Assembly (NCBI GenBank): GCA_964017235.1
Contig: OZ024931.1
Coordinates: forward strand, 120,601,530-120,665,529
Length of the DNA: 64,000 nt
Reading direction: 5' to 3'
Source: Sabellastarte sp. h YS-2021
Lineage: Eukaryota; Annelida; Polychaeta; Sabellida; Sabellidae
The translations under genes were made by a program, and so were the position numbers. This document shows positions 532-64,000 of this stretch, one piece after another; position 1 is the stretch's first letter; every line of letters starts with the position of its first letter. Below the pieces are notes generated by a model that saw nothing but the letters and a program-made list of their open reading frames with translations, had not been told where the DNA came from and made no database searches.

Positions 532-3130
532 GCTTACTGGCGACCCGCATGTTGTTGTGTTTTTCCATTTTTTGCGAAAATTCGAAAATTCAAAATGGCC
601 GCCATTTTTGGGGAGGGGAAAATTTTTTGAAAATTAACAATAGTACATTCTTCTTATACCCTGCGGGTCGAAAATTTCGACGAAATGGCTCTATCTCGCA
701 CGGTTAAGGAGATACAAGCAATTTTGTATTTTTCCATTTTTTGTGAAAATTCGAAAATTCAAAATGGCCGCCATTTTTGGGGAGGGGAACATTTTTTTGA
801 AAATTGCCTACAGTACATTTCTCTTATACCCTGTGGGTCGAAAATTTCGACGAAATCGCTCTATCTCGCACGGTTAAGGAGATAGAAGCAATTTTGTGTT
901 TTTCCATTTTTGGCGAAAATTCAAAATGGCCGCCATTTTTGGGGAGGGGAAAATTTTTTGAAAATTGCCAATAGTACATTCCTCTTATACCCTGTGGGTC
1001 GAAAATTTCGACGAAATCGCTCTATCTCGCACGGTTAAGGAGATAGAAGCAATTTTGTGTTTTTCCATTTTTGGCGAAAATTCGAAAATTCAAAATGGCC
1101 GCCATTTTTGGGGAGGGGAAAATTTTTTGAAACTTGCCAATAGTACACTCCTCTTATACCCTACGGGTCGAAAATTTCGACGAAATCGCTCTATCTCGCA
1201 CGGTTAAGGAGATAGAAGCAATTTTGTGTTTTTCCATTTTTGGCGAAAATTCAAAATGGCCGCCATTTTTGGGGAGGGGAAAATTTTTTGAAAATTAACA
1301 ATACTACATTCCTTTCATACCCTGTGGATCGAAAATTTCGATGAAATCGCTCTATCTCGCACGGTTAAGGAGATAGAAGCAATTTTGTGTTTTTCCATTT
1401 TTGGCGAAAATTCGAAAATTCAAAATGGCCGCCATTTATGCGGAGGGGAAAATTTTTTGAAAATTGCCAATAGTACATTCCTCTTATACCCTGCGGGTCG
1501 AAAATTTCAACGAAATTGCTCTATCTCGCACGGTTAAGGAGATACAAGCAATTTTGTGTTTTTCCATTTTTGGCGAAAATTCAAAATGGCCGCCATTTTT
1601 GGGGAGGGGAAAATTTTTTGAAACTTGCCAATAGTACACTCCTCTTATACCCTGTGGGTCGAAAATTTCGACGAAATCGCTCTATCTCGCACGGTTAAGG
1701 AGATACAAGCAATTTTGTGTTTTTCCATTTTTGGTGAAAATTCGAAAATTCAAAATGGCCGCCAATTTTGGGGAGGGGAAAATTTTTTGAAATTTAACAA
1801 TACTACAGTCCTCTTATACCCTGTGGGTCGAAAATTTCGACGAAATCGCTCTATCTCGCACGGTTAAGGAGATAGAAGCAATTTTGTGTTTTTGCATTTT
1901 TGGCGAAAATTCAAAATGGCCGCCATTTTTGGGGAGGGGAAAATTTTTTGAAAATTAACAATACTACATTCCTTTTATACCCTGTGGGTCGAAAATTTTG
2001 ACGAAATCGCTTTATCTCGCACGGTTAAGGAGATAGAAGCAATTTTGTGTTTTTCCATTTTTGGCGAAAATTCGAAAATTCAAAATGGCCGCCATTTTTG
2101 CGGAGGGGAAAATTTTTTGAAAATTGCCAATAGTAGACTCCTCTTATACCCTGTGGGTCAAAAATTTCGACGAAATTGCTCTATCTCGCACGGTTAAGGA
2201 GATAGAAGCAATTTTGTGTTTTTCCATTTTTGGCGAAAATTCAAAATGGCCGCCATTTTTGGGGAGGGGAAAATTTTTTGAAAATTAACAATACTACATT
2301 CCTTTCATACCCTGTGGGTCGAAAATTTCGATGAAATCGCTCTATCTCGCACGGTTAAGGAGATAGAAGCAATTTTGTGTTTTTCCATTTTTGGCGAAAA
2401 TTCGAAAATTCAAAATGGCCGCCATTTATGCGGAGGGGAAAATTTTTTGAAAATTGCCAATAGTACATCCCTCTTATACCCTGCGGGTCGAAAATTTCAA
2501 CGAAATTGCTCTATCTCGCACGGTTAAGGAGATACAAGCAATTTTGTGTTTTTCCATTTTTGGCGAAAATTCAAAATGGCCGCCATTTTTGGGGAGGGGA
2601 AAATATTTTGAAAATTGCCAATAGTACATTCCTTTTAATACCCTGCGGGTCGAAAATTTCGACGAAATCGCTCTATCTAGCACCGTTTCTGAGATAAACG
2701 CGTTTTTGTTTTTTCAACGTTAAGAAAAATCGTGACATTTAGTAAATCATTAATAAGTCGGCCATTTTGTATTGGATCGTTTCGAAAAGTTATTGATTTC
2801 CAGACATGTATATAACGAACCTACTTGCAAAATTTCATGTGAATAGGTGAAGCGCTTTTTAAGTTATCATCCAGACAAGCACACCCTTTTGAAAAACATG
2901 TTTTTGGTCGTGACTTTTCTGATTGGTGGAAAAACATGCAATGAGGAAAAATGATAGTCCTCCACCCAAGGGAGCTCCATACCAAATTTCAAAGAAATCG
3001 GTGCAGTAGTTTCTGAGGAGAAGAGGCTGGAAAAAAAATTGTTGACGACGCCGACAACAACCACAACAACAACAACAACGAAGACGACGCCAGGCCATGC
3101 CATTAGCTTACGGCCGTTGGCCAGTAAGCT
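532..3130 (-). mobile_element. H1: hairpin-ended satellite-bearing element
   Basis: Written on the minus strand so that the hairpin comes first. The right end (3,105-3,130) is a stem-loop of AGCTTAC-GGCC / GGCCAGTAAGCT type, and the arm GCTTACTGGC recurs in inverted order at 532-541, giving a short terminal inverted repeat. Inside the hairpin lies a (GTT/GTC)-rich tract at about 3,040-3,095, then a subterminal module with GAAATTTGGTATGG near 2,980-3,020. The stretch 2,735-2,920 is clearly related to the equivalent tail of H3a (11,340-11,545). The rest is a 161/169-bp tandem array. No protein is encoded. The layout fits non-autonomous Helentron / pearl-type elements; that assignment is inference. 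Confidence 0.7.
545..2700 (-). repeat. 161/169-bp satellite array with higher-order structure
   Basis: About 13 tandem monomers, each with the palindromic core AAAATGGCCGCCATTTT, a CTCTATCTCGCACGG block and a GGGGAGGGGAAAA block. The AAAATGGCC core starts at 592, 761, 923, 1092, 1253, 1422, 1583, 1752, 1913, 2082, 2243, 2412 and 2573. Spacing therefore alternates 169 and about 161, because every second monomer lacks an 8-bp TCGAAAAT-type segment, making a dimer of about 330 bp. A variant core (CCATTTATGCGG) at 1,422 and 2,412, exactly 990 bp apart, marks a longer six-monomer period. Short ORFs here are array artefacts. Confidence 0.93.
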
Positions 3131-4189
3131 AAAAACCGGTTTCCAGGTCTTTGAAACCGAACGAAATCCGGGATTTTGAAAGTTTGCACTGATATGGCAA
3201 AAATTTAACGCAAGCGTACATAAACTATATTGTCAAGAGGAAATATGTATTTGAGAGATAGTTTTGAAGTTTATAAACTTTATTTACTGTGAATATAGAG
3301 TGTAAATGTAAGATGTTTCCTCAAATTTATATTTTTTGATAGTCTTGAAGAAATATTAACCACAGAAAGCTTACAATGACATTTTCAATTACCAGTACTT
3401 AAATATTATTTGCAGATTTCGTCATTTCTACCTAAACGAAACGAAATGCGGAATGTTGGTTTACCGTTCACACCACTAACTGGTTACGTGTCCAGTAGTA
3501 AAATATTAATAAGACACTTCCTTACTTATAAGGTGATTTCAGCGAATGATTCAAGGCTTTCATGTTTATATATTTTTTGTTTCCTGTCAAAGTGCATACT
3601 AAACTTCATGAGGGCCCAGTGTCAAGGAGAAATTTCATATTATAAACTTCCAGTATATTTTGGTATACAATGGTGCAGTTGGTTGCTTGCAAAAAGATTT
3701 GGGCCCCTTATCGACAAGTACACTGTTTAATATCATTATATCTAGGTTATTACCGGTGCAGATACTGATAGTATATCAATAAAGGTGTCGGATGAAGCCA
3801 TATTTCTTGCTTAACTTACTACTGCTCGGACCCAACACAGAAACCTTATTTGTGCTTGTTTTAAGTATAGTTACTAGGGACGTCACGACTCCAAGTATTT
3901 CATGTCAGCTACTTGCTAAGTACTATTTGTAGTGCTGGGGGATGTTCTGCAGCAATGATCGGTAAAATTTAATTACAACCGATATTTGCTAAACTCATTT
4001 GTTTCAATAAGCCTAATCAGCATTTCGATTCGCGCAAAGCATTATGGAAAGGTATCGGGATAAACAAAAAACGTCTGATAGAAGAACCAGGAAGTAGCAA
4101 ATATTTAATTTATGTGATTTTTGTATATATATATTATATATATGCATTTATCTTATACAAAATTCAATCTCACAATTAAAGTGAGGTCA
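3131..4189. other. No gene seen; dispersed-repeat remnant
   Basis: AT-rich. The segment about 3,985-4,070 (AATAAGCCTAATCAGCATTT through GGGATAAACAAAAA) is an inverted, diverged copy of 11,795-11,880, so it belongs to a dispersed repeat. The reading frame at 3,410-3,730 has no recognisable domain and is not called as a gene. Confidence 0.5.
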
Positions 4190-4756: not shown

Positions 4757-6500
4757 AAAAATAGCATCAGAGATGCCCGTACCCCACAGCCTTGGGAAAT
4801 ATTTTCAACACCATGAGATATAGAAGTACTGTACCAGTACAAACTTCAGGATACTTTCAGAGCACTGTCAGTTATATAAAGGTCCAAACAATGTTTAAAT
4901 AGAGAAATAATGTTTAAAAGAAAGATAATGCGTATAAAGATGAAGTATTAAAACAAGATAATTCAATGACAAGATGACAGCATTAATCAGTAGAATAAAA
5001 TTCAACACTCTTTATATACATCTGCATTTCCGAATTATGGTTTAGATGGTTTGAATATTACCATGCATACAGAAGTGGTAATACATTTAATGAATACTTA
5101 TGTGTGGTGTTGGAGTAAAATCTGCGGCTCACTTGATGAAATTCTATCTCTTACAATGGGAAGTTATGAAAGTAAAATTCTTAATAAATTCTAATATGAC
5201 TTTTGCTTAATCTGCATCAAAAGACAGACCCAAAGGTGCAACAAGATTTTAAAGTTCAAGGTCACTACGGCAAGGTAAAAGGTCAAATTAAGGTCACACC
5301 ATGATAATACACACCTATAGCCAATAACCAATGTCCCTTCCAAGTATCAACTTCCTACACCTTACGGTTTCCGAGATACAGCCCTGACAATTTTATAGGT
5401 CAAGGTCACTATGGCAAGGTCAATGGTCAAATCAAGGTCACCCATGATGCTGCACACCTACACCACCTAGCCAATGTCTCTACCAAATATCAACTTCCTG
5501 CACCTAACAGTTTCCGAGATAAAGCCCGGACAATATTTTATAGGTCAAGGTCACTACAGCAAGGTTAAAGGTCAAATCAAGGTCAGACTATGACGTTGCA
5601 CACCTACACCCCCTAATCAATATCCCTACCAAGTATCAACTTCCTACACCTTACAGTTTCTGAGATATAGCCTGGACAACATTTTATAGGTCAAGGCCAC
5701 TACGGCAAGGTCACAGGTCAAATCAAGGTCACACCATGACGTTGCACACCTACACCCCCTAACCAATATCTGTACCACGTATCAACTTCCTACACCTTAC
5801 GGTTTCTGAGATATAGCCCGGACAACATTTTATAGGTCAAGGTCACTACGGCAAGGTCAAATCAAGGTCACACCATGACGTTGCACACCTACACCCCCTA
5901 ACCAATGTCCCTACCAAATATCAACTTCCCAAGCCTTACAGTTTCCGAGATATAGCCTGGACAACATTTTATAGGTCAAGGTCACTACGGCAAGGTCAAA
6001 TCAAGGTCACACCATGACGTTGCACACCTACACCCCCTAACCAATATCCCTACCAAGTATCAACTTCCTACACCTTACGGTTTCCGAGATATAGCCCGGA
6101 CAAGATTTTATAGGTCAAGGTCACTACGGCAAGGTCAAAGGTCAAATCAAGGTCAGACTATGACGTTGCACAACTACACCCCCTAACCAATGTCCCTACC
6201 AAGTATCAACTTCCTACACCTTACAGTTTCCGAGATATAGCCCGGACAAGATTTTCAAACTCAAGGTCACTACGGCAAGGTCAAATCAAGGTCAGACCAC
6301 GATGTTGCACAGCTACACCCCCTAACTAATGTCCCTACCAAGTATCAACTTCCTACACCTTACGGTTTCTGAGATACAGCCCGGACAAACTATTTCCCGC
6401 CGCCCGCCCACCAACCCGCCCAGACGCCCGCCCGCCCGACCATCCGGACACCATGGGTGAAAACAATACCCCAACAGCCATTAAGGGCTGTGGGGTAAAA
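4757..6500 (-). mobile_element. H2a: hairpin-ended element with AGGTCA-rich array
   Basis: Right end 6,467-6,497 is a hairpin (TACCCCAACAGCC / GGCTGTGGGGTA, one bulge). The arm TACCCCACAGCC reappears inverted at 4,780-4,791. Next to the hairpin is a (GCCC)-rich tract (about 6,398-6,450), then an array of about 140 bp, then a unique portion (4,800-5,240). That unique portion is shared in inverted orientation with H2b (about 39,700-40,100). The outer boundary near 4,757 is set by the shared AAAAATAGCATCAGAGATG sequence at both copies. No coding capacity. Confidence 0.75.
5240..6385. repeat. ~140-bp tandem array rich in AGGTCA half-sites
   Basis: About eight monomers, each with CAACTTCCTACACCTTACGG, a GAGATATAGCCCGGACAA block and a run of AGGTCA hexamers. 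Visible arrangements include AGGTCAAGGTCA (no spacer, e.g. about 5,834), AGGTCA-A-AGGTCA (about 6,132), AGGTCA-C-AGGTCA (about 5,708) and AGGTCA-AATCA-AGGTCA (about 5,852). TCAAGGTCA, the extended half-site bound by ERR/NR5A-type nuclear receptors in animals, occurs about twice per unit. Binding is not demonstrated. Confidence 0.9.
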
Positions 6501-8200: not shown

Positions 8201-8559
8201 AAAACTAGAGGATCGCTCGCAAAAAAAAAAGATAATGTTTTTGCATAGCAAAAACAAAGCGTCCCGAAAAGGATATAAAGGTGAGTGCTAAAGTATTAAG
8301 ACAATGCTTCGTTTCTAGCCTTATACTGTTGTGGCAACCAACGTCAGCGCAGTCTGCTCTATCTAGCACGGTTTTCAAGATATAAGCATTTTTGTGTTTT
8401 GCAAAAACTTTGAAAATTCAAAATGGCCACCATTTTTGGGGAGACAAAAATTTTTGTCAAGGCCACTGCCATGGTGTGTATCTCCCGCCGAGCATTAAAG
8501 CAGAAGAAATAGCTTTTCCGAGATATTCACAATTTTTCATTTTCGTGTGTGAAAGCTCT

Positions 8560-10550
8560 TCCAAAAGTAGGTGAATGAGTTATTTGAGAAAAATTGGCTA
8601 TCTGCAATACTATTAAGAGATAATTCACATTTACTCATTTTGAGTAGGTGAATAATTATCTATGGGTCTGAAACTTCACCAAGTGAAAGCTCTCCCAAAA
8701 GTAGGTGAATGAGTTATTTGAGAAAAATTGGCTATCTGCAATACTTTTAGAGATAATTCGCATTTACTCATTTTGAGTAGGTGAGTAATTAGCTATGGGT
8801 CTGAAACTTCACCATGTGAAAGCTCTCCCACAAGTAGATGAATGAGTATTTGATAAAAATTGGGTATCCGCAATACTTTTACAGATAATTAGCATTTACT
8901 CATTTTGAGTAGGTGAATAAATAGCTATGGGTCTGAAACTTCACAGAGTGAAAGCTCTCCCAAAAGTAGGTGAATGAGTTATTTGAGAAAAATTGGCTAT
9001 CTGCAATACTTTTAGAGATAATTCACATTTACTCATTTTGAGTAGGTGAATAATTAGCTATGGGTCTGAAACTTCACCAAGTGAAAGCTCTGCCAAAAGT
9101 AGGTGAACGAGTTATTTGAGAAAAATTGGCTATCTGCAATACTTTTAGAGATAATTCGCATTTACTCATTTTGAGTAGGTGAGTAATTTGCTATGGGTCT
9201 GAAACTTCACCAAGTGAAAGCTCTCCCAAAAGTAGGTGAATGAGTTATTTGAGAAAAATTGGCTATCTGCAATACTTTTAGAGATAATTCGCATTTACTC
9301 ATTTTGAGTAGACGAGTAATTAGCTATGGGTCTGAAACTTCACCAAGTGAAAGCTCTCCCAAAAGTAGGTGAATGAGTTATTTGAGAAAAATTGGCTATC
9401 TGCAATACTTTTAGAGATAATTCGCATTTACTCATTTTGAGTAGGTGAGTAATTAGCTATGGGTCTGAAACTTCACCATGTGAAAGCTCTCCCACAAGTA
9501 GATGAATGAGTATTTGATAAAAATTGGGTATCCGCAATACTTTTACAGATAATTAGCATTTACTCATTTTGAGTAGGTGAATAAATAGCTATGGGTCTGA
9601 AACTTCACAGAGTGAAAGCTCTCCCAAAAGTAGGTGAATGAGTTATTTGAGAAAAATTGGCTATCTGCAATACTTTTAGAGATAATTCACATTTACTCAT
9701 TTTGAGTAGGTGAATAATTAGCTATGGGTCTGAAACTTCACCAAGTGAAAGCTCTGCCAAAAGTAGGTGAACGAGTTATTTGAGAAAAATTGGCTATCTG
9801 CAATACTTTTAGAGATAATTCGCATTTACTCATTTTGAGTAGGTGAGTAATTTGCTATGGGTCTGAAACTTCACCAAGTGAAAGCTCTCCCAAAAGTAGG
9901 TGAATGAGTTATTTGAGAAAAATTGGCTATCTGCAATACTTTTAGAGATAATTCGCATTTACTCATTTTGAGTAGACGAGTAATTAGCTATGGGTCTGAA
10001 ACTTCACCAAGTGAAAGCTCTCCCAAAAGTAGGTGAATGATTAATTTGAGAAAAATTGGCTATCTGCAATACTTTTAGAGATAATTCGCATTTACTCATT
10101 TTGAGTAGGTGAGTAATTAGCTATGGGTCTGAAACTTCACCATGTGAAAGCTCTCCCACAAGTAGATGAATGAGTTACTTGATAAAAATTGGGTATCTGC
10201 AATACTTTTACAGATAATTAGCATTTACTCATTTTGAGTAGGTAAATAATTAGCTATGGGTTTGAAACTTCACCATGTGAAAGCTCTCCCAAAAGTAGGT
10301 GAATGAGTTATTTGAGAAAAATTGGCTATCTGCAATACTTTTAGAGATAATTCGCATTTACTCATTTTGAGTAGGTGAGTAATTGGCTATGGGTCTGAAA
10401 CTTCACCATGTGAAAGCTCTTCCAAAAGTAGGTGAATGAGTTATTTGAGAAAAATTGGCCATCTGCAATACTTTTAGAGGTAATTCGCATTTACTCTTTT
10501 TGAGTAGGTGAGCAATTAGCTATGGGTCTGAAACTTCACCAAGTGAAAGC
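8560..10550 (-). repeat. 133-bp tandem array with 664-bp higher-order period
   Basis: Fifteen monomers with GGGTCTGAAACTTCACC, GTAGGTGAATGAGTTATT and TACTCATTTTGAGTAGGTGA. The GGGTCTG marker lies at 8664, 8797, 8929, 9062, 9195, 9328, 9461, 9593, 9726, 9859, 9992, 10125, 10258, 10391 and 10524 (133 bp, twice 132). Variants recur five monomers (664 bp) apart: the AATAAATAGC type at 8,929/9,593, the AATTTGC type at 9,195/9,859 and the GACGAGTAATT type at 9,328/9,992. A five-monomer block was therefore duplicated. Confidence 0.95.
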
Positions 10551-11335
10551 TCTTTGGGATAGCTGCTCTGCAGAGATACCCTGAAGATAAAAAATTTCGT
10601 CGAAATCGCTCTATGTAGCACGGTTTTCGAAATATTAGCATTTTTGTGTTTTGCAATTTTTGCGCAAAAATTCGAAAATTCAAAATGGCCGCCATTTTTG
10701 GCAAGACAAAATTTTTTTGAAAATTGGCATGGCTACTCTGCAGAGATACCCAGTGGGTCAAAAATTTCGTCGAAATCGCTCTATCTAGCACGGTTTTTGA
10801 GATATAAGCATTTTCGTGTTTTGCAATTTTGCGAAAAATTCGAAAATTCAAAATGGCCGCCATTTTTTGCGAGAAATTTTTTGTTTGAAAATTGGCATGG
10901 CTACTCTGCAGAGATACCATGCGGGTCAAAAATTTCGTCGAAATCGCTCTATCTAGCAGGGTTTTTGAGATATAAGCATTTTTATGTTTTGCAATTTTTG
11001 CGAAAAATTCGAAAATTCAAAATGGCCGCCATTTTTGGCGAGACAAAATTTTTTTGAAAATTGGCATGGCTACTCTACAGATATACCCTGTGGGTCAAAA
11101 ATTTCGTCGAAATCGCTCTATCTAGCACGGTTTTCGAGATATAAGCATTTTTGTGTTTTGCAATTTTTGCGAAAATTGGGAAAATTCAAAATGGCCGCCA
11201 TTTTGGGCGAGACAAAAATTTTTTGAAAATTGGGAAAACTACTCCGCAGAGATATCCTGCGGGTCAAAAATTTCGTCGAAATCGCTCTATCTAGCACGGT
11301 TTTCGAGATATAAGCATTTTTGTGTTTTCCTTATT
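10551..11335 (-). repeat. ~165-bp array (AAAATGGCCGCCATTTT family) inside H3a
   Basis: About five monomers of the same family as the H1 and H7 arrays, with variant blocks CTCTATCTAGCACGG and TACTCTGCAGAGATACC. Relative to the hairpin the monomers point the same way as in H1, H7 and H3b. ORFs on both strands are artefacts of the repeat. Confidence 0.9.
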
Positions 11336-11849
11336 TGGAAAATTCGTAATGATTAATTTATCATTAATTACTCGGCCATTTCTTGACCAATCAATGCCAA
11401 AATCTAATGATTTCCAGATTTTAATAGAATGAATGTATTTGCCAAGTTTCAGGTGAATTGATAAAATTCCTTTCAAGTTATCATCCGGACAAGCTTCCCC
11501 ATCGAAAAAAGACATTTTTGGTCATGTGACCTCTCTGATTGGTTGAAATGTCACTGCAGAATATTCAAAAAAATTCCCCAAGGCTACTGCCTAAACCTGC
11601 CAAATTTGAAAAGAATCCGCCTAACGGTTACAGAGTTATAAGGAAAACAAAATGCGGAGCCGGCAGAGCCGGAAGCTCTCCCATACACAAACAAGCGTCC
11701 CTTGCGGGACGCTTAATTAGTTTTGTAGAAATTATGTAGTATTTACTCTTTTCTTCATGTAAAAATCACTTCCTGATTCATATCTACGTAGATTTGTTTA
11801 TCCCGAAATGGAAGTTGGGACAATTTGTTCACGCATGCGTACTTGAAAT

Positions 11850-46098: not shown

Positions 46099-48490
46099 AT
46101 GTCGGCTGACTTGTCAGTCAGCCGACATTATGTCGTCACTCTGTGGCGTTGGCGTCCGCGTCCGCATGAACAACTTCTCCTCCAAAACTACAAGGCCTAG
46201 AGACATGCTGTTTTTTTAAAAGATACCTTATCTGTCGAAGATGAAAAATTGTTCAAGGCATGCAAATCTGTTTGTTCGTCTGTTTGCTAGAGCCATTACA
46301 AGGGAGGTACCCCCACCAAAAGTGTGAAAAATCTCAACACTTTATCACAATTTTCTCAGTGACTATTGCAGGGATTTCTCTCATATCTTGCATCTATGTA
46401 CTACACCACAAGTAGATTCCGTTGTGTGAGTGTTAGACCTGGATCTTTCTTAATTATTTTTTTATGAATTTTTAAAATAATTTTTAATGCATTAAAATTA
46501 ATGAAATCATGCACTAAATCATTTACAACTAGAAAAGTATTGCATTTAGAGCATTTTGTTAAAATATGTTGTTCAGCTACTTTTTCCATACCTACAACAT
46601 GGAGAGTAACTTGGGTATCTATCTCAAAGCTAAGTGAGTAATAGCTACTTTTGGACTTTTCTGTAACTTCCTTCATGAGTAAAATCACTTGTAACTTGAA
46701 AACTATTGCATTTAGAGAATTTTGTGTAAATATGTTATTCAGCTACTTTTGGGTCAGCTATAACATAGTAAAATTTCAGATCTGTAGCTCATGGCATAGC
46801 TGAGTAATAGCTACTTTTAGGTTATCACTGTTGAGTAAATCACATATAACTTGAAAAGTATTGCATTTAGAGTATTAAGTTGCAATATGTTATTCACCTA
46901 TTTTGGGGTCTTAACATAGTAAAATCCCAGACCTGTGGCTCATTGTATAGCTGATTAATAGCTACTTTGAGGTTCTTACTCAACACTAAATCATTTATAA
47001 CTTGAAAAGTATTGCATTTAGAGCATTTTGTTAAAATATGTTATTCAGCTACTTTTTCCATAGCTACAACATGGTGAGTAACTTGGGTGTCTATCTCAAT
47101 AGCTAAGTGAGTAATAGCTACCTTTGGACTTTTCTGTAACTTCCTTCATGAGTAAAATCACTTATAACTTGAAAACTATTGCATTTAGGGAATTTTGTGT
47201 AACTATGTTAGTCAGCTACTTTTGGGTCAGCTATAACATAGTAAAATTTCAGACCTGTAGCTCATGCCATACCTGAGTAATAGCTACTTTTAGGTTATCA
47301 CTTGAGTATTTAGCTTCAGTATGTTATTCACCTATTTTGGGGTCAGCTATAACATAGTAAAATCCCAGACCTGTGGCTCGTTGCATAGCCGAGTAATAGC
47401 TACTTTGAGGTTCTAACTCAACACTAAATCATTTATAACTTGAAAGGTATTGCATTTAGAGCATTTGGTTAAAATATGTTATTCAGCTACTTTTTCCATA
47501 GCTACAACATGGTGAGTAACTTGGGTGTCTATCTCAATAGCTAAGTGAGTAATAGCTACCTTTGGACTTTTCAGTAACTTCCTTCATGAGTAAAATCACT
47601 TATAACTTGAAAACTATTACATTTAGGGAATTTTGTGTAACTATGTTAGTCAGCTACTTTTGGGTCAGCTATAACATAGTAAAATTTCAGACCTGTAGCT
47701 CATGCCATACCTGAGTAATAGCTACTTTTAGGTTATCACTGTTGAGTAATTCACTTATACCTTGAAAACTATTGCATTTAGAGTATTTAGCTTCAGTATG
47801 TTATTCACCTATTTTGGGGTCAGCTATAACATAGTAAAATCCCAGACCTGTGGCTCATTGCATAGCTGAGTAATAGCTACTTTGAGGTTCTTACTCAACA
47901 CTAAATCATTTATAACTTGAAAAGTATTGCATTTACAGCATTTTGTTAAAATATGTTATTCAGCTACTTTCTCTATAGCTACAACTTGGTGAGTAACTAC
48001 GGTGTCTATCTCAATAGCTAAGTGAGTAATAGCTACTTTTGGACTTTTCAGTAACTTTCATCATGAGTAAAATCACTTGTAACTTGAAAACTATTGCATT
48101 TAGAGAATTAAGTGTAAATATGTTATTTAGCTACTTTTGGGTCAGCTATAACATAGTAAAATTTCAGACCTGTAGCTCATGGCATAGCTGAGTAATACCT
48201 ACTTTTAGGTTATCACTGTTGAGTATATCGCTTATAACTTGAAAACTATTGCATTTAGATTATTTAGTTTTAGTATGTTATTCACTCCCTATTTTGGGGT
48301 CAGCTATAACATAGTAAAATTAAAACTATTGCATTTGCAATATTTTCTTTAAATATGTTTTTAACTTACTTTTTAAACCTTAACAGTTACTTTCTTACTT
48401 TCCTTCTGAACACCATTTCCAGGGCACAACTTTTGTGTCCCTTTTCTTCTGTCACTTCTACTCTGAAACTCAAAACACAGTCAGCTGACA
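46099..48490 (+). mobile_element. H6: hairpin-ended element with ~155-bp array
   Basis: Perfect 12-bp stem ATGTCGGCTGAC / GTCAGCCGACAT with loop TTGTCA (46,099-46,128), then a GC-rich GGCGTCCGCGTCCGCATG tract, a module-like ACTTCTCC..AAAACTAC, a 155-bp array and the distal arm GTCAGCTGACA (48,480-48,490, one mismatch). Confidence 0.8.
46400..48335 (+). repeat. ~155-bp array with trimeric period
   Basis: Marker AACTTGAAAA at 46693, 46848, 46999, 47166, 47438, 47604, 47760, 47914, 48081 and 48236. Spacings 155-151-167 recur as a trimer of about 475 bp; one trimer carries a deletion around 47,300. Units contain GTAATAGCTAC and TCAGCTATAACATAGTAAAA. Confidence 0.9.
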
Positions 48491-49029
48491 CAGAGCCCAT
48501 TCATGGACACTGATTGCTTGTTTTTAATATACAGTTATAATGACTTTAATTTTTAATTCCTTTTGTAAAAATAAATATAATACTTTTCTGGTGGTTTATA
48601 TTAAAACAAATTATAATTAACAAAATAATGTTAAGTGTTTTATTAAGCGTCCCGCAAGGGACGCTTGTTTGTGTATGGGAGAGCTTCAGGCTCCGGCGGC
48701 TCCGCCGGCTCCGCCAGCTCCGCCAGCTCCGCATTTTGTTTTCCTTATAACTCTGTAACCGTTAGGCGGATTCTTTTCAAATTTGGCAGGTTTAGGCAGT
48801 AGCCTTGGGGAATTTTTTTGAATATACTGCAGTGACATTTCAACCAATCAGAGAGGTCACATGACCAAAAATGTCTTTTTTCGATGGGGAAGCTTGTCCG
48901 GGTGATAACTTGAAAGGAATTTTATCAATTCACCTGAAACTTAGCAAATACATTCATTCTATTAAAATCTGGAAATCATTAGATTTTGGCATTGATTGGT
49001 CAAGAAATGGCCGAGTAATTAATGATTAA

Positions 49030-49719
49030 TTAATCATTACAAATTTTCCAAATAAGGAAAACACAAAAATGCTTATATCTCGAAAACCGTGCTAGATAGA
49101 GCGATTTCGACGAAATTTTTGACCCGCAGGGTTTCTCTGCAGAGTAGTTTTCCCAATTTTCAAAAAAATTTTCTCTCGCCCAAAATGGCGGCCATTTTGA
49201 ATTTTCGAAATTTTCACAAAAATTGCAAAACACAAAAATGCTTATATCTCGAAAACCGTGCTAGATAGAGCGATTTCGACGAAATTTTTGACCCACAAGG
49301 TATCTCTGCAGAGTAGTTATCCCAATTTTGAAAAAAATTTTATCTCGCCAAAAATGGCGGCCATTTTGAATTTTCGAATTTTTCGCAAAAATTGCAAAAC
49401 ATAAAAATGCTTATATCTCGAAAACCCTGCAAGATAGAGCGATTTCGACGAATTTTTTGACCCACAGGGTATATCTGCAGAGTAGCCATGCCAATTTTCA
49501 AAAAAATTTCTCTCGCCAAAAATGGCGGCCATTTTGAATTTTCGAATTTTTCGCAAAAATTGCAAAACATAAAAATGCTTATATCTCGAAAACCCTGCTA
49601 GATAGAGCGATTTCGACGAAATTTTTGACCTGCAGGGTATCTCTGCAGAGTAGCCATGCCAATTTTCAAAGAAAAAATTTCTCGCAAAAAATGGCGGCCA
49701 TTTTGAATTTTCGAATTTT
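49030..49719 (+). repeat. ~165-bp array in H3b
   Basis: About four monomers with ATGGCGGCCATTTTGAATTTTC (split here as ATGGCGGCC and TTGAATTTTC) and AACCGTGCTAGATAGAGC. Same family as in H1, H3a and H7. Confidence 0.9.
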
Positions 49720-51300
49720 CAGACCCATAGCTAATTACTCACCTACTCAAAATGAGTAAATGCGAATTATCTCTAAAAATATTGCAGATAGCCAATTTTT
49801 CTCAAATAAATCATTCACCTACTTTTGGGAGAGCTTTCACTTGAAGTTTCAGACCCATAGCTAATTACTCACCTACTCAAAATGAGTAAATGCGAATTAT
49901 CTCTAAAAGTATTGCAGATAGCCAATTTTTCTCAAATAACTCATTCACCTACTTTTGGGAGAGCTTTCACTTGGTGAAGTTTCAGACCCATAGCTAATTA
50001 CTCACCTACTCAAAATGAGTAAATGCAAATTATCTCTAAAAGTATTGCAGATAGCCAATTTTTGTCAAATTAATCATTCACCTACTTTTGGGAGAGCTTT
50101 CACTTGGTGAAGTTTCAGACCCATAGCTAATTACTCACCTACTCGAAATGAGTAAATGCGAATTATCTCTAAAAGTATTGCAGATAGCCAATTTTTGTCA
50201 AATTGATCATTCACCTACTTTTGGGAGAGCTTTCACTTGGTGAAGTTTCAGACCCATAGCTAATTACTCACCTACTCAAAATGAGTAAATGCGAATTATC
50301 TCTAAAAGTATTGCAGATAGCCAATTTTTCTCAAATAACTCATTCACCTACTTTTGGGAGAGCTTTCACTCTGTGAAGTTTCAGACCCATAGCTAATTAC
50401 TCACCTACTCAAAATGAGTAAATGCGAATTATCTCTAAAAGTATTGCAGATAGCCAATTTTTCTCAAATTAATCATTCACCTACTTTTGGGAGAGCTTTC
50501 ACTTGGTGAAGTTTCAGACCCATAGCTAATTACTCACCTACTGAAAATGAGTAAATGCGAATTATCTCTAAAAGTATTGCAGATAACCAATTTTTCTCAA
50601 ATAACTCATTCACCTACTTTTGGGAGAGCTTTTCACGTGGTGAAGTTTCAGACCCATAGCTAATTACTCACCTACTCAAAATGAGTAAATGCGAATTATC
50701 TCTAAAAGTATTGCAGATAGCCAATTTTTCTGAAATAACTCATTCACCTACTTTTGGCAGAGCTTTCACTTGGTGAAGTTTCAGACCCATAGCTAATTAT
50801 TCACCTACTCAAAATGAGTAAATGTGAATTATCTCTAAAAGTATTGCAGATAGCCAATTTTTCTCAAATAACTCATTCACCTACTTTTGGGAGAGCTTTC
50901 ACCCTGTGAAGTTTCAGACCCATAGCTATTTATTCACCTACTCAAAATGAGTAAATGCTAATTATCTGTAAAAGTATTGCGGATACCCAATTTTTATCAA
51001 ATACTCATTCATCTACTTGTGGGAGAGCTTTCACATGGTGAAGTTTCAGACCCATAGCTAATTACTCACCTACTCAAAATGAGTAAATGCGAATTATCTC
51101 TAAAAGTATTGCGGATAGCCAATTTTTCTCAAATAACTCATTCACCTACTTTTGGGAGAGCTTTCACTTGGTGAATTTTCAGACCCATAGGTAATTATTC
51201 ACCTACTCAAAATGAGTAAATGTGAATTATCTCTTAATAGTATTGCAGATAGCCAATTTTTCTCAAATAACTCATTCACCTACTTTTGGAAGAGCTTTCA
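49720..51300 (+). repeat. 133-bp array in H3b
   Basis: About twelve monomers (CAGACCCATAGCTAATTACT marker near 49720, 49850, 49983, 50116 and so on), collinear with the H3a array but without its clear 664-bp duplication. Confidence 0.93.
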
Positions 51301-51806
51301 CACACGAAAATGAAAAATTGTGAATATCTCGGAAAAGCTATTTCTTCTGCTTTAATGCTCGGCGGGAGATACACACCGCGGCAGTGGTCTTGACAAAAAT
51401 CTTTGTCTCCCCAAAAATGGTGGCCATTTTGAATTTTCAAAGTTTTTGCAAAACACAAAAATGCTTATATCTCGAAAACCGTGCTATATGGAGCGAACTC
51501 AACAAAATTTTGGACCTGCTGGGTATCTCTGCAGAGTAGCCATGCCAATTTTCAAAATATTTTTGCCTCGCCAAATATAGCGGACATTTTAAATTTTTTT
51601 ATTTTTTGCAAAACACAAAAATGCTTATATCTTGAAAACCGTGCTAGATAGAGCAGACTGCGCTGACTTTGGTTGCCACAACAGTATAAGGCTAGAAACG
51701 AAGCATTTTCTTAATACTTTAGCACTCACCTTTATATCCTTTTCGGGACGCTTTGTTTTTGCTATGCAACATTATCTTTTTTTTTTGCGAGCGATCCTCT
51801 AGTTTT

Positions 51807-52091
51807 ATTTGCTTAGATGCTTCTTGAAATTTCTGACTTTTCTCTATTTAATGTCTAAATTGATCTTTTAGTGTCTATATATACAAATAAGGTAAATTTA
51901 GGTAATGCTGATAAAGCAATTAAGTAAGACCATTTAAATTTAACATTCTAATAATGGTTACAAATATCTTACTTGTCTGGTAAAACAATTCTAATATATT
52001 TTATCCTTATGTAAATTTCAGAAAATATCTCAGGACCAGATACAATGTTGAAAGGGACTTTTCGATAGAAGTAAGTATTTGTTATCCTTAT
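51807..52091. other. No gene seen
   Basis: AT-rich spacer between H3b and H7. Confidence 0.5.
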
Positions 52092-53356
52092 TATGTCCAC
52101 CCCACTGGGGGGTGGACATATTATTTTTGCTTTTTCCGCAGTCCGCTGTCCGCCGTCCCACTTGGTTTCCAGACATTTTAGCCAACAGTTCTTGTCCTAT
52201 CTTTACCAAATTTGGCATGCAGGTTTATTGGGTTAATAGCTTGTATGGGATTGCTTTTGGTGATGATAGCTCTATAGCTAACTGAGTAATAGCTACTTTG
52301 CTACTTTTGAGTATCTCTTTGGTTTCCAGACATTTTAAGGAATGCTATTAAGCCTAGCTTTCTGAAATTTGATATGGAGGTTCATTGGGTTAATAGCTTG
52401 TATGGGATTGCTTTTGGGGGGAATTGCTTCATAGATGAGTGAGTTATTAATTAAATAAATGAGTAATTGGCTATTTTGAATTCTCAAAAAGACAAATGTG
52501 CTCATATCTCCTAAACCGTGCGAGATAGAGCGATTTCGTTGAAATTTTCGACCCACAGGGTATCTAAGTAATGTACTCTTTGTAATTTTTAAAAAATTTT
52601 CCCTCCCCAAAAATGGCGGCCATTTTGAATTTTTCCCAAAAATGACAAAACACAAATTTGCTTCTATCTCCTTAACCGTGCGAGATAGAGCGATTTCGTC
52701 GAAATTTTCGACCCACAGGGTATCTAAGGAATGGACTCTTTGCAATTTTCAAAAAAATTTCCCCTTCTCAAAAATGGCGGCCATTTTGAATTTTCCAATT
52801 TTTGCCAAAAATGGCAAAACACAAATTTGCTTCTATCTCCTTAACCGTGCGAGATAGAGCGATTTCGTCGAAATTTTCAACCCATGGGGTAACTAAGAAA
52901 TATACTCTTGGCAATTTTCAAAAAATTTTCCTCTACCCACATATGGGGGCCATTATGAATTTTTTGAATTTTTGCCCAAAATGGAAAAACACAAATTTGT
53001 CTTAACCGTGCAAAATCAAGTTATTATTTCGTTGAAATTTTCGACCCATAGGGTATCTAAGAAATGTACTCTTGGCAATTTTCAAAAAATTTTCCTCTTC
53101 CCAAAAATGGCGGCCATTTTGAATTTTCAAATTTTTGCCAAAAATAGAAAAACAGAAATTTGCTTCTATCTTCTTAACCGTGCAAGATAGAGTGATTTCG
53201 TCAAAATTTTCGACCCAACCAATGCAAAAAGACATGAAGCTGAAATAATTTACATGTACACTAAATATTTAAGCATCATTGATATATTTTACAAATGAAA
53301 CAGGGTCTTGTAAGAGTACTGTACAATTTTGGCAAAAGGTTCATGGGGTGGACATT
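52092..53356 (+). mobile_element. H7: hairpin-ended element
   Basis: Perfect 12-bp stem TATGTCCACCCC / GGGGTGGACATA (52,092-52,120), then GCAGTCCGCTGTCCGCCGTC, a module with CAAATTTGGCATGCAGG (about 52,208), a ~165-bp array, and distal arm GGGGTGGACAT (53,345-53,355), an 11-bp perfect inverted match. Short frames on both strands are array artefacts. Confidence 0.8.
52490..53225 (+). repeat. ~165-bp array in H7
   Basis: About 4.5 monomers of the AAAATGGCGGCCATTTT family, closest to those of H1 (shared CTTCTATCTCCTTAACCGTG and GACCCACAGGGTATC) although the H1 and H7 hairpins are unrelated. Confidence 0.9.
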
Positions 53357-53449
53357 ACACATGATAATGTGTGTTCTTCTATGCTATCCTGTTTCTATTC
53401 ATATGTCGCAGCTACTATCAACAGGGAGTCCTATTTCTAGTTAATTCTT

Positions 53450-53800
53450 TTACCCCATAGCATTCAAAGGCTGTTTGGTTATTGCTTTTCACCCATGGCA
53501 TCTGGTTAGGCCAGTGGGTGTGTGGGTTCCTAGGATGTTGATACTTAGTAGGGACATTGGTTGGGGGGGGGGTGTAGGTGTGCATTGTTGTGGTGTGACC
53601 TGGATTTGACCTTTGGCTTTGCTCTATTGACCTTGACCTTCAAAATCTTGTCCTTGCTAAATCTCCGAAAATGTAACATGTAGGAAGTTGATACTTCTCA
53701 GTGAAATAGGTTCTGAGGTGTAGGCGTGAACTTTGTGTGACCTTTGACCTTGGCTTCTATTCAAAGAATTTGGTTTCACTTTTGGCTAACTTTAAGTTAT
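53450..53800 (+). mobile_element. H2c: truncated H2-family copy
   Basis: Degenerate hairpin TTACCCCATAGCATTCAAAG / GCTGTTTGG, then TTTTCACCCATGGCATCTGG as in H2b, and about two monomers with GTAGGAAGTTGATACTT and TTTGACCTTTG. The GC-rich tract and distal end are missing. Confidence 0.65.
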
Positions 53801-58899: not shown

Positions 58900-59279
58900 T
58901 TAACAAGTCAAGCCAGTTCTTAGTACATGTCATCTAAGCACCAGTAAAAGCAAATTCATTGAGGAATTTAATTGTTTCATGGAAGTGGCTGCTTTGTCAC
59001 CACATGAAAACATCATCCTGGGAGATGTCAATATTCATCTAGACAGTCAAAGCTTCTGGACAGATAATTTCAACACAGTTCTGTCAGATTTTGATTTTAT
59101 TATCTCCCGCCTGCGGCCGAAGGTCGTTGTCGGGAGATTATAAAACGCCTTCCGTACATGTGTGCGTCTGTCCGTACGTGCGTCTGTTCGTCACTTTTTG
59201 CATAAACCTTAATAACTCATTCATTTATAAAGATATTTTCACCAAATTTGCAGGGAATGTTTATGACTATGAAAACCTG

Positions 59280-61700
59280 TCTCTGCAAAATTTTAGCCTC
59301 ACTTGTGAAAACAAAATGGCCGCCATAGCTAATTGTTTGAAAATCGTAAAGGTGCTCTAAATCTTGAAATATTCCAGCTAGCTTCATCGAATTTGCACAA
59401 AAGCTATATGGCTAGAAAAGCTAGCCTGATAGTAATTTTGGCCTAGTTCAAAAACAAAATGGCCGCCATATCACATGTTTAATGTCAAACAGGGTTATCC
59501 TATTAAAAAGGCCTTATATCTCCCCAAATATTGCTCCTAGAGGTTCGGAATGTGAAAACAACTTGTAGGAAGTCATGGCCTGGGAATCTTTTCCAGGTGT
59601 TGAATTTGACCTTTGACCCCTGCTTCAAGGTTAAATGAGGTCATCAAACTAAAAACATCCTTATTTCTCCCTTATTATTGGTGCTATGGCTTCAGAATAT
59701 AAAGACAGACCATCAAAAGTTCTGGCCTTCAAATGTTTTGCCTGAGAAAAATTTTGGCCTTATTTTGAAAAACAAAATGGCCGCCATAGCCAATTATTTA
59801 AAAATCATTAAGATGCTCTAAAACTTGAAATATTGCAGCGAGGTTCATCAAATATGTGCAAAATATATATGGCTAGGAAAGTCAGCCTGATAGTAATTTA
59901 GCCTAGTTTCAAAAACAAAATGGCCGTCATATCACATGTTAAATGGGATTATCCTATTAAAAAGGCCTTGTATCCCTTATCATTAATATATTGCTTTATG
60001 CAGATGATATTGTTCTTGTTGCACAAAATGAAAACATATTACAAAAATTATTAGATAAATTGTATGAATGGTGTAGCCGTTGGCATTTAGAAATCAATGA
60101 ATCAAAATCTAATGTAATGCACTTCAGGAAATCTAGGAAACTTCGTTCTTACATTGCATTTAAGATAGGAAATACGAAACTAGACTATGTTAAAACATAC
60201 AGGTATCTAGGGGTCTCATTAGATGAAAATCTAACCTTTAACGCAGCATGCCAAGAATTAAGTGATGCAGGTGGGAGAGCGTTTGGTGGCATTGTAGCCA
60301 AATTTAAGCAATTTAAGCATCTTTCATTTAAATGTTTCACAAAACTCTTTGATACAGGAGTAGAACCAATATGTACTTATGCCTCTAGTGTATGGGGGTT
60401 TCAATAAATTCCAGTTAGGACAGAAGCTCCATCTCAGGGCAATAAGATATTTTCTTGGAGTGCACAAATGAACACTAACCTTAGCATTAACTGCAGACTT
60501 TGGTTGGCTAGACAGGAAGTATAAATATAATCTTAATATACTTAAATTTTATAATCGTCTTTTATCAATGAACAATGACAGACTGACAAGGCAAGCGTTT
60601 GAAGCAGATCAAAGCCATATGTCAAGCACTAACTGGTCAGGAATGGTTAAGCAAATTTTAAGTGACATAGGCAAAGAAAGAAACATTGAAAACTTCGAAA
60701 AGATTGACATCAATCTTGCAAATGAGAAATTCAAAGAGTTATCTAATAGAGAATTTCAAGAAAATGTTGAAATCAAACCAAAATTACGGTCTTATAATAA
60801 ACTATTTAAAAGACATGTAGAAACTGAAAAATATGTCACCGCTAACTTAAGTAAATATGAAAGGTCACTAATAGCTAAGTTTAGGTCGGGTACTCTCCAG
60901 CTTGCAATTGAGACTGGGAGATTTAGAAATACAGAAATTAACAATAGACTATGCATTTTGTGTAACCAAAATCAAGTTGAAAATGAAATTCATTTTTTGT
61001 GCTTTTGTCCTTTTTATCATGACCTGAGACAGAAACTTTACAGCGATCTTAAAATAGACCCGGAATCTTTTGAGAATAATTATGACTTATTCATAGAGAT
61101 AATGCGTTCTGAAAGAATGTATTGCCTGTCATCTTTCATTGTTAGTGCTTGGGGAAAAAGAAGAGATTTCATTTATAATTCTGACTCTTAACTTTTTAAA
61201 TCTAAATACAAATGTTAACTGTTGATGCGATGTAATAAGATATATGTATGTAACAAGATTACACTTTACCTGGTTCATTTTGCTTGCTTCCTTTGTTGAA
61301 ACTTTCTTGTTTTAAATATATTTTAAATAGTAGCAAATGTGTCTATATTAAATTTGTTCACCACTTTTTGTTTGCCAAAATGTCATTTAATGATATTTCA
61401 ATAGTTTAAAGTGTCTTATAAGCCCGAATGAGGCTGGGTTTGTATTTTGATTTTGTATTTCATGTATATATGTATTTGTAAATCAAACAGGACACTATAA
61501 TAAACGATTCATCATCGTCATCATCATCATCATTGCTACTAGGGGTTCCAAAAGTGAAAACAACTTATACGAAGTCAAGGCCTGAGACTATTTTCCAATT
61601 GCTAACTTTTACCTTTGACCCCTTCTTCAATGTCAAGTGGGGTTATCTTACTACAAATGCCTTATGTCTCCTTTAGTTCTTCATTATTACTGATTCTAAG
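59280..61700 (+). repeat. H8 internal repeats (interrupted by LINE-C)
   Basis: CAAAATGGCCGCCATAGC and CAAAATGGCCGCCATATCAC occur at about 59,310, 59,454, 59,774 and (GCCGTCAT variant) 59,918, with shared phrases TCTAAA.CTTGAAATATT, GCTAGAAAAGCTAGCCTGAT and TTATCCTATTAAAAAGGCCT. Two unit types alternate; the period is irregular (about 460 bp per pair). Confidence 0.75.
59996..61531 (+). pseudogene. LINE-C: 5'-truncated non-LTR element inside H8
   Basis: Flanked by ATTGCT at 59,990-59,995 and 61,532-61,537, a target duplication in H8 (sibling H8 unit reads AATATTGCTCC near 59,528). It starts within the reverse transcriptase at YADDIVLVAQNE and continues WCSRWHLEINESKSNVMHFR and KTYRYLGVSLD. 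The frame breaks near 60,400 (one-base shift) and has a TGA near 60,470; the last frame (60,568-61,191) ends with CILCNQNQ...H..C, a LINE C-terminal zinc-like block. 3' end has AATAAA-like text and an (ATC)n tail (about 61,508-61,531). Clade not assigned. Confidence 0.85.
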
Positions 61701-64000
61701 GCGGGAATTAACCGCTGCGACAGTGGCCTTGTTCAACATGTGTCAACACCTACACACATACAGAAACATATCCTTGATGTACTCTGAACTAGTAAATCCC
61801 TAACTTCTTCAGTTCATCATTATTCAAAGGATGGCATATCAGACCGCCTGGCTGTCTTTTTCACCACAACATTTCCGGTAAAAAATTCCGGCAGAGTAAA
61901 ACAGTTAAAAATCAGAAAACTTGGAAAGATAAACAAAACTGAATTCATGTCTAATATTGCAATTTCTGAGCTTATCCAGGCTCCTTACAAAACAGCTAGT
62001 TTATTATCACACCAGTATTTTCATACCCTTAGGAACTTACTTGACAAGCAGGCACCTATACATGAACGCAAAACTCCACAACATGTCAACAAAGGGTTCA
62101 TAAACAGCGAGATTTTGGCAGCAAAGAGACACTAACGCAAACAACTCTGCCATAAATCGCAGTAGGTATAGAGCTGCAGTGAACCATTTCAACCACCTAT
62201 TGGAATGTGTGAAAACCAAATACTGTAGTAACATGGTTAGGGAAAATGAGGATAACCCCAAGACCTTGTGGAATTCCATAAAGAATGTCCTCCATAGATC
62301 ACCAAAAATCAGAGTTGCTTTAGAGTCATCAGTGCCTGTTTCCCTCACAATACCGAAGAGTAATAGCAGTGCCCTGACCTCTTTTGAGCCTGTATCTGAG
62401 GATGACATCCTCAAAATCCTAAGGTCATCCAACACCAAATCATCCGACCTGGACCCAATCCCTACCGCACTAGTCAAAGAGTGTGCGGACATTTTGGTCA
62501 CTCCAATCACCAATATTATAAACTATTCACTCAAAGAAGGGAGTTTCCCAAACTGTTTCAAAACAGCATATGTCACCCCTCTTCTCAAGAAACCAAACTT
62601 AGACAGAAATCTCCTAAAAACTATAGACCGGTATCCAACCTTAGTTTCTTATCCAAACTGATCGAAAAAGTAGTTGCCAAACAGTTAAATAATTATATCG
62701 ATAGCGAGGGGCTCTCCAATGTCAACCAATCCGCTTACAGGAGACTCCATTCCACAGAAACAGCGCTGTTGAAAATCCAGAATGACATTGCTGCTTCGTT
62801 GGACTCTGGTAAGGCTGTTGCACTCACACTGCTAGACCTCTCAGCGGCATTCGACACTATCGACCATGACATTCTTTTTAATTCCCTAAGAGATTGGTTT
62901 GGGGTTGATGGCACTGTGTTGAGGTGGATCAGATCCTATATCTCAAACCGGAAACAGAAGGTTAAATTAGGAAATAGCTTTTCAGATGTGTTCTCACTTC
63001 CGTATGGTGTGCCTCAGGGTTCTGTCCTGGGCCCCCTCCTTTTTACCCTTTACACAACCCCTCTCAGTAATATCATTTCCAATTTCAATGTCACCCACCA
63101 TCTTTATGCTGATGACACCCAAATATATCTAGCATTGGACAATAGGAATTTTGATTCCAGTTTCGCTGAGCTTACAGAGTGTCTCACATGTATCCAAAAC
63201 TGGATGGCTGGCGTGAAATTGAAACTCAATCCCGAGAAAACTGAATTTATTATAATAGGTGATAGACAAGCCAGAGAGTCCCTCATAAATAAATTCCCTA
63301 CTCAACTTCTCGGAAATTCTATTTCCCCTACTGATACAGTCAAGAACCTGGGTGTAATTTTTGACTCTGGAAACACCTTTTCCAACCACATAACTAATAT
63401 GTGTCGAGCCTGCTACTACCACCTTAAGGACCTAAGACATATTCGTAAATTCCTCAGTGTGGAAACTGCAGCCTTGCTTGCAAACTCAATGATCAGTAGT
63501 CGACTTGACTACTGCAATTCCCTACTTTATGGCATCAGTAAGTACAATGTTGCTAAACTCCAAAAGATACAAAATGCCCTTTGTAGAATTGTTTTTAGAC
63601 TTGATAGAACTAGCCATGTCACTCCTTTTCTTCAAAAACTACACTGGCTTCCTATCACTTACCGTATATTGTTTAAGTACAATCTAATTACTTTCAAGGC
63701 TATAAATTTCTCTCAACCCATATACCTATCATCCTTGATCAAAACCAGTTGTCTAACACGTGGAAATCGTCTTTCTCTTTCCTCAGCCTCTCACAAAAAG
63801 GCCATCGGTAGGAGAGGTTTTGTAGTGGCTTCCCCCATAGAATGGAACAGACTCCCACAATCAGTACGATCACAACAAACAATAACAGGTTTCCGTAGCC
63901 AGCTAAAGACCTACTTGTTTAGATTAGCATATCCTCCACCATAGGACATCTGGCGGGCGCTAACCTTGGATCATGACCTCGAACGTCCCTCGACTTTCCC

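Follow-up and report, generated by a model that had tools for sequence, protein, structure and literature searches.

Satellite-carrying HINE-type elements in a Sabellastarte genome, an autonomous Helentron partner of one family, and a shared internal motif

The 64,000-nucleotide stretch of Sabellastarte sp. h YS-2021 analyzed here (hereafter, the window) lies on the 155-Mb contig C5 of a 1.79-Gb genome; C1 to C18 denote contigs of this genome. The window carries eleven copies of hairpin-ended repeats in eight families, one each of A, D, E, F, G and H, two of C and three of B, which is the tally reached earlier by a sequence-only reading. The locus raises the questions of what kind of element these copies are, how they move and where their satellite arrays come from. 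We found that the copies are very probably Helentron-associated interspersed elements (HINEs), which are non-autonomous rolling-circle transposons of the Helitron/Helentron type, and that most of them carry satellites. The HINE plan comprises a 5' subterminal inverted repeat (subTIR), a complementary inverted repeat, a microsatellite, tandem repeats, a 3' subTIR and a 3' palindrome (PMC7492417, PMC4067079; all cited papers are used here to the extent of the text portions available). In these terms, the hairpin described previously comprises the 5' subTIR and its inverted repeat, and the far arm corresponds to the 3' subTIR.

Ends and insertion sites of the eight families

The window was scanned with strict criteria, in which a hairpin had a perfect stem of at least 8 with at least 4 G/C and a loop of 3-12, and an arm was a 9-mer found inverted 1-4 kb away. 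The scan yielded 8 hairpins, 6 of them with an inverted arm. In 20 dinucleotide shuffles of the window, the mean was 1.6 for hairpins and 0.25 for hairpins with an arm, the latter never exceeding 2. The inverted match between 5' and 3' ends was scored in nine copies (A, B copies 1 and 2, C copies 1 and 2, D, E, F and G; H was left out). A copy's own two ends matched with a score of 9-12 in eight of the nine, whereas 68 cross-family end pairs had a mean score of 5.96 and a maximum of 8. In particular, the match extended without mismatch over 10 bases in A and 12 bases in B copy 1, D, F and G, over 12 bases with one mismatch in E, and over 10 contiguous bases followed by a mismatched extension in both C copies. 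The paired subTIRs of published HINE families measure 11-15 bp, and the 10 bases of A and of the two C copies are slightly short of that.

The plan of one hairpin and one inverted arm, which the sequence-only reading had ascribed to all copies, was therefore borne out in these eight copies and not in the remainder: the hairpin of B copy 2 is degraded and its match score is 5, no far arm was seen in B copy 3, and the arm of H matches over about 8 bases as judged by eye. The 5' hairpin is also degraded in B copy 3 and imperfect in A, B copy 1 and H. Similarly, the tandem array thought common to all copies was detected in A, B copies 1 and 2, both C copies, D, E, F and G, and the tandem-array listing of the window contained none for B copy 3 or H. 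A second palindrome near the far end had been overlooked in several copies. Its stem is 5-9 in A, B copies 1 and 2, C copy 1 and F, and 4 in C copy 2 and G, with examples being TGTTTTTGC/GCAAAAACA in C copy 1, ACACAT/ATGTGT in F and GCATC/GATGC in B. The best palindrome of E overlaps the subTIR, and a short CCAT/ATGG was seen by eye; no good palindrome was found at the 3' end of D. An Rfam scan of the window gave zero matches at the gathering score.

Empty sites were compared for B copy 1, a G copy and H, and all three revealed zero target duplication. The G copy lies within a D-type Rep gene on contig C11. The uninterrupted genes on contigs C3 and C2 read GTTTATTTTGGATAG, whereas at the filled site on C11 the left junction is GTTTATT-ATATCCCC and the right junction is CTAG-TTTTGGATAG; this comparison indicated that two of the T's belong to the element and that nothing was duplicated. 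B copy 1 is absent from an otherwise matching sequence on contig C1, about 89% identical, where the sole difference is in the lengths of the T-runs. The empty site of H is the other, uninterrupted copy of the same long interspersed nuclear element (LINE) in the window, which reads GATTTTGATTTTATTCCACATG. Homology between copies ceases immediately beyond the assigned termini at the C 3' end, at both D ends and, among the copies listed, at the 5' ends of F and G. Two findings that the sequence-only reading had itself set against its proposal, fixed-length target duplications and hairpins internal to longer elements, were thus absent, the former at the three empty sites and the latter in C, D, F and G where examined.

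The hairpins are abundant in the genome. Counts per strand were 7238 for C (exact pattern) and, with at most one mismatch, 8652/8660 for G, 6575/6557 for F, 3334/3314 for D and 195/199 for B, and the reversed-pattern control gave 0 for all five families. Because the patterns are palindromic, each count approximates the number of places; the B count is low at least in part because many B hairpins, those of the window among them, are imperfect. Nine B-type hairpins were also observed at C2:189741-232143, about 4.5-5.7 kb apart and in one orientation, as tandem units near the contig end.

The individual copies are arranged as follows. Family A (512..3136, minus strand, ends approximate) has its 5' hairpin at 3103-3134, the 3' arm GCTTACTGGC (read on the plus strand) at 532-541, the 3' palindrome AGGCCTTGGCCT and a 169-bp-type array at 555-2715; the ends of A and E were defined on the window copy alone. 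B copy 1 (4762..6496, minus) contains the hairpin ACCCCACAGCC, a 146-bp array at 5241-6388 and the GCATC/GATGC palindrome. B copy 2 (38056..40150, plus) has a 146-bp array at 38375-39683 and an intact 3' end behind its degraded hairpin, and B copy 3 (53447..53760, plus) consists of the 5' hairpin and about 310 bp only, with no 3' end seen. C copy 1 (8205..11715, minus) contains the hairpin AAGCGTCCC at 11693-11714, 133- and 169-bp arrays, the 3' arm at 8257-8265 and the 3' palindrome at 8236-8256. C copy 2 (48644..51802, plus) has its hairpin at 48645-48666, a GC-rich microsatellite, a 169-bp and then a 133-bp array, and the 3' arm at 51745. Both C copies end in CTAG/TT, as does G (34254..37173, plus), in which the subTIR ATATCCCCAGAC has the perfect 12-bp 3' partner GTCTGGGGATAT and a 351-bp (2 x 176) array spans 34789-35771. 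E (46097..48520, plus, 3' end inferred) shows the hairpin ATGTCGGCTGACT at 46099-46128, a degenerate array at 46507-48320 and the 3' arm AGTCAGCTGACA at about 48480. F (52090..53384, plus, 3' end inferred) shows the hairpin TATGTCCACCCC at 52092-52120, a 169-bp-type array at 52486-53217, the 3' arm at 53345 and the ACACAT/ATGTGT palindrome. H (59100..61731, plus) lies inside a LINE and has the hairpin TATCTCCCG...CGGGAGAT, the 3' arm AGGCGGGA at 61699-61706 and the 3' end CCTTG/T.

Inspection of the window copies revealed no Rep-like frame, in agreement with the sequence-only reading. With regard to its broader statement that no copy encodes protein, open frames of 113-200 aa, judged without a protein-family search, occur in or over several copies, and H contains frames of 148 and 239 aa (about 59961-61500) that resemble LINE fragments by eye only. 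We also observed that D starts at the 3' end of B copy 2 (40150-40154) and that B copy 3 starts about 60 bp past F (53384-53447); the T-rich ends of HINEs may serve as targets for other HINEs. Families A, C and F have different ends, yet have a related 169-bp monomer type in common, pointing to internal modules that were either exchanged between families or inherited from a shared ancestor.

An autonomous partner of family D

The D copy of the window (40154..42328, plus) contains a tandem pair of TAGGCGGGTTG hairpins, at 40157 and 40901, a GTCY-type microsatellite, a 168-bp array and the 3' arm CAACCCGCCTT at 42293. The genome contains 24 matches to the Rep family PF14214, two of which have flanks with the D 5' hairpin and, about 12 kb further on, the D 3' arm. 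These two loci are autonomous D elements of 12.3-12.5 kb with D ends and a D array (about C3:168666687-168678959 and C2:137358596-137371143), and they are 98.5% and 99.0% identical over two main aligned blocks. The C3 element contains an open frame of 2245 residues, stop to stop, with DUF6570, Helitron_like_N and PIF1 domains; its C terminus matches Exo_endo_phos with 23.1 bits, slightly below the Pfam cut-off of 24.5. The PIF1 part matches the Helraiser transposase in the PDB with an E value of 1.7e-9, and the N-terminal half of the protein had no match in the PDB at E 0.01. In the C2 copy, the gene is broken into frames of 1783 and 394 residues. Additional copies of the D-type Rep gene were found on C4 and on C11, the latter being the one interrupted by G. 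The resemblance to Helentron-derived HINEs proposed in the sequence-only reading was right; in the case of D, it is supported by the presence of an autonomous element that has the D ends and encodes a Rep-helicase-endonuclease.

Comparison with these elements revealed the origin of the window D copy. Its 5' side is 99.2% identical to C2 over 1769 bp, its 3' side is 99.2-99.4% identical to C2 and C3 over 356-357 bp, and the two matches are joined at a junction (41960..41985, plus) where about 10.3 kb of the autonomous element is absent. Because two matches of about 99% meet at this junction, the window copy is an internal-deletion derivative that has kept the termini, microsatellite and array. 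A 121-bp stretch over the junction matched three other places at 99-100%; the junction is spanned in 4 of 40 scored places (108 candidates, window included), namely in the window and on C4, C18 and C7. The 5' flanks differ in all four, and the 3' flanks differ in the window, C4 and C18 copies; the 3' end of the C7 copy was not found. The same junction on four contigs with differing flanks indicates that the deletion copy itself was multiplied. Within the searches made, the connection of a HINE of the bivalve type to an autonomous partner whose frame is intact, and the multiplication of its deletion copy, are new; a literature search, covering the sources in part, found no report of an autonomous partner for a bivalve HINE. 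Additionally, a pair of 5' hairpins separated by about 410-780 bp is frequent among D elements (the window copy, the autonomous C2 and C3 elements and several C1 places listed); in the window copy and the autonomous ones, the second of these hairpins is followed by a second array, as a tandem duplication of the 5' end.

A Rep-helicase frame bounded by the hairpins, which the sequence-only reading had suggested looking for, was thus present for D on C3 and C2. The Rep genes of the genome split into several distant lineages, and four others were examined as partners. At L012, C- and E-type arrays occur only in reverse orientation to Rep; at L011, two B copies lie beside Rep without bounding it; the L023 region lacks any window-family end; and the one weak hairpin/arm candidate at L020 was not trusted.

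On the basis of these comparisons, we propose that an autonomous partner would supply a Rep (HUH) nuclease that recognizes a family-specific site of about 12 bp, present at both ends in inverted orientation: as the 5' subTIR inside the hairpin, and as the 3' subTIR ahead of the second palindrome. Rep would nick the DNA, and one strand would be displaced by rolling-circle replication with help from the PIF1 helicase, which would halt at the 3' arm and palindrome; the strand would then be joined into a T-rich target without duplication. Arm sequences would differ between families because each family depends on a separate Rep lineage, and partners are predicted for the seven families other than D. 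The window D copy is an internal deletion of the 12.3-12.5-kb Helentron and was afterwards copied again.

Several observations weigh against this reading. The autonomous partner was found for D only, and the flanks of L011, L012, L020 and L023 showed no convincing bounding hairpin/arm pair; the remaining Rep lineages were viewed with 1.5-kb flanks only. The end pairs are weak in A and C (10 bases only) and in H (about 8), B copies 2 and 3 lack a good pair, and D lacks a clear 3' palindrome. The canonical Helitron has a 5' TC and a 3' CTRR end and is inserted between A and T. The observed 5' ends do not start with TC. The CTAG end, seen for C in 10 fetched places (one being window copy 1, and L004 and L005 having the same flank) as well as in window copy 2, and for G in two copies, also fits canonical Helitron insertion between A and T. 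Among the copies listed, all 47 of F and all 48 of G have a T before the hairpin, and the base preceding this terminal T is A in 43 and 42 of them, respectively, which fits such insertion as well. Because the elements begin with T, insertion between two T's and insertion between A and T are inseparable for F and G, and the latter is possible for C, F, G and H. Families C, F and G may therefore be Helitron/Helentron intermediates. A CTAG 3' end is known in Pacific oyster elements (PMC7992393).

A serious alternative, falling a little short of an even chance in our judgment, is that two kinds are mixed in the window: A, B, D and E would be Helentron derivatives in T-tracts, and C, F, G and H would depend on another Rep-helicase, one that cuts at Helitron-like sites (5'-TT...CTAG or CTTG-3', between A and T). 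This would account for the CTAG ends of C and G, the A before the terminal T of F and G, and the empty sites of G and H, which are equally readable as insertions between A and T; it also agrees with the several distant Rep lineages of the genome and with the mixed Helitron/Helentron features known in oyster (PMC7992393) and in a Phytophthora element (PMC4067079). It sits less well with the hairpin and inverted-arm plan common to all eight families, with the internal motif of D, which is also present in C, F and G, and with the CTTG end of H, which D has as well. Cut-and-paste movement of miniature inverted-repeat transposable elements with palindromic ends, the class to which Pearl (PMC7492417) and DINE-1 (PMC2374699) were first assigned, is in turn exceedingly improbable, given zero target duplication at three empty sites, asymmetric ends with a hairpin on one side and a single arm on the other, and a D parent that encodes a Rep-PIF1-endonuclease.

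A motif of about 60 bp in cores and monomers

The sequence-only reading held that the hairpins differ completely between families. This is correct for the hairpins themselves, but the modules behind them share a motif. A Gibbs sampler was run on the 260 nt past the hairpin, with one copy per family A-G and 40 shuffled sets, and scored 127.3 at width 36 (shuffled mean 64.1, maximum 75.8) and 123.8 at width 24 (shuffled mean 72.2, maximum 84.5). In a held-out test, a 60-nt matrix was trained without the tested family and compared with 100 shuffles; the test is not fully blind, as the training positions came from the all-family run. The sense-strand maxima of A (31.2), B copies 1-3 (38.1, 34.7 and 15.6), C (31.6), D (31.6) and F (16.8) lay above all 100 shuffles. 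E (14.3) was under its best shuffle (16.6), as was G (16.6 vs 18.7), and yet G showed six regularly spaced peaks above the mean + 2 sd. The rest of the window, H included, reached 7.4-10.3, and the antisense strand was below zero. With a later model, E scored 16.7, above all 200 shuffles (best 12.6), whereas H was without the motif (39 of 200 shuffles attained its best score of -5.1), and two LINE frames and the D coding part were motif-negative.

The motif model was built from families A-D, F and G. The core of family C at 48733..48792 (plus) is an example, and further matches lie within 2823-3036, 5334-6389 and 11439-11652 on the minus strand and within 34323-35936, 38374-39608, 40229-41363 and 52163-52378 on the plus strand. 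The motif stands in the module after the microsatellite in most families and also in the monomers of B, D and G. Its spacing is 154 in A and 158 in C (two hits each), 139-155 in B with gaps of about twice that, 164-221 in D, 157-177 in F, and 175-176 or 336-351 in G. The autonomous D elements contain it six times (C3) and seven times (C2) in the 5' array, and it was nowhere found in their coding part of about 10 kb. An array of 130-146-bp units, K, adjoins the autonomous D element on C3 (C3:168679400 onward) and was not in the training set; it scored 53.3 bits, which 0 of 200 shuffles reached. K has only short matches to the window (25-51 bp), mostly to G; a 51-bp stretch (90%) and shorter ones are shared with G outside the motif, and K may thus be a relative of a trained family. 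Genome-wide, the motif pattern occurred in 38,902 places, compared with 26 for the reversed control; the places listed are mostly D-array copies and are not independent. The motif is thus common to the core regions of families whose ends are unrelated and to the monomers of several such families, a link that is new within the searches made.

It is possible, but doubtful, that the satellites of at least some HINEs are not captured passengers: the one-strand motif would then be an old functional component of the Helentron replicon, amplified once per about 140-220 bp into the arrays of B, D, G and K. It might consist of, for example, iteron-like Rep- or helicase-loading sites or nucleosome-positioning sites, and satellites would then arise by amplification of the transposon's own control site. 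We lowered our confidence in this proposal after finding that in A, C and F the 169- and 133-bp monomers could be aligned to the motif only by a model including them; with a model built without them, none of the 169-bp monomers was detected at E 0.1 and one 133-bp monomer was detected at E 0.043. We are somewhat more inclined to regard the motif as functionless, either as a remnant of one ancestral Helentron core or as a remnant of modules exchanged between families; shared descent or module exchange accounts for the motif data as well as selection does. Clear purifying selection on the motif within arrays was not seen in the four families B, D, K and G: variability in the motif and outside it was 0.131 and 0.116 in B (108 of 145 circular shifts as large) and 0.048 and 0.080 in D (15 of 167), and the same test gave 45 of 144 in K and 60 of 174 in G. 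The 169-bp monomer common to A, C and F likewise implies that modules move or persist between families, and H does without the motif. Less easily explained by a functionless remnant are the confinement of the motif to the sense strand, the roughly kept spacing of 140-220 bp, and conservation across families, where information per site in 10-nt bins was 0.59-0.85 bits in the block and 0.20-0.51 bits in its flanks, the instances having been picked for the motif, which raises the block values.

A presumed lepidopteran repeat scored 16.7 bits with the motif model (best of 500 shuffles 5.9) and is a tentative lead; the presumed Drosophila INE-1 core gave no score. Words from these two insect repeats had no match in the literature, viral contigs or genome contigs.

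Neighboring features and relation to known elements

Other repeats were observed in the window. Two copies of a 298-bp unit, 99% alike, with CTCGAGTACTCG-like palindromes, lie at 15743-16341 (plus). An open frame of 1270 residues at 17505-21317 (plus) appears endonuclease- and reverse-transcriptase-like by eye and resembles a full LINE ORF2. A second LINE type occurs in two copies, at 29418-31535 (minus) and at 61729-62142 / 62406-63944 (plus), which are 88% identical over 414 bp; the latter copy is the one interrupted by family H.

The HINE plan and the multiplicity of its families are already known, and the undescribed radiation suspected by the sequence-only reading is not supported as such: eleven satellite-carrying HINEs of this plan, several of them unrelated in sequence, have been described in Crassostrea gigas as Cg_HINE (PMC7492417). 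As in the window, Cg_HINE elements have subTIRs, an inverted repeat, a microsatellite, an array of monomers of about 140-180 bp and a 3' palindrome, fall into sequence-unrelated families, and are found in T-rich targets without target duplication, with arrays in one orientation. In contrast, none of the ten autonomous elements known there could be related to HINEs according to the available text, whereas D has its partner here, and the group-3 elements are called unrelated in all modules (PMC7492417), whereas here a core motif is common to most families despite their unrelated ends. The Pacific oyster Helitrons resemble C and G in their 3' CTAG, with subTIRs in 257 of 751 and a 5' inverted repeat in a third of those; the available text reports no autonomous element and only one subTIR element with a microsatellite (PMC7992393).

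DINE-1 and the HINEs of Drosophila, mites and mosquitoes also share with the present families a subTIR with an inverted repeat, a GTCY microsatellite, a core of about 90 bp in the 5' block, central repeats, a terminal hairpin, a TT preference and a Rep-helicase-endonuclease partner (PMC4067079, PMC2374699). The conserved core of DINE-1 was suggested to matter for transposition (PMC2374699). Its central repeats are non-homologous between species, and the available text mentions no link to the core, whereas the monomers of B, D, G and K hold the motif (PMC4067079, PMC2374699). The bivalve satellites BIV160, Cg170 and HindIII are similar to those described here in their monomers of about 160-170 bp, their Helitron-type link and two motifs conserved despite divergence; compared by description, the motif found here differs in occurring also outside arrays and across monomer families (PMC5139131, PMC8268682). 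The Pearl elements CvA, CvE and CvG, likewise by description, are non-autonomous bivalve elements with central repeats of about 160 bp (PMC7492417, PMC11136912).

In the text available from two oyster studies, the autonomous driver of satellite-carrying bivalve HINEs was left open (PMC7492417, PMC7992393). The presence of the D partner and a descendant HINE in one genome makes transposition, end recognition and satellite spreading directly testable. If the motif proved functional, the birth of satellites would be linked to the transposon's own replication signals.

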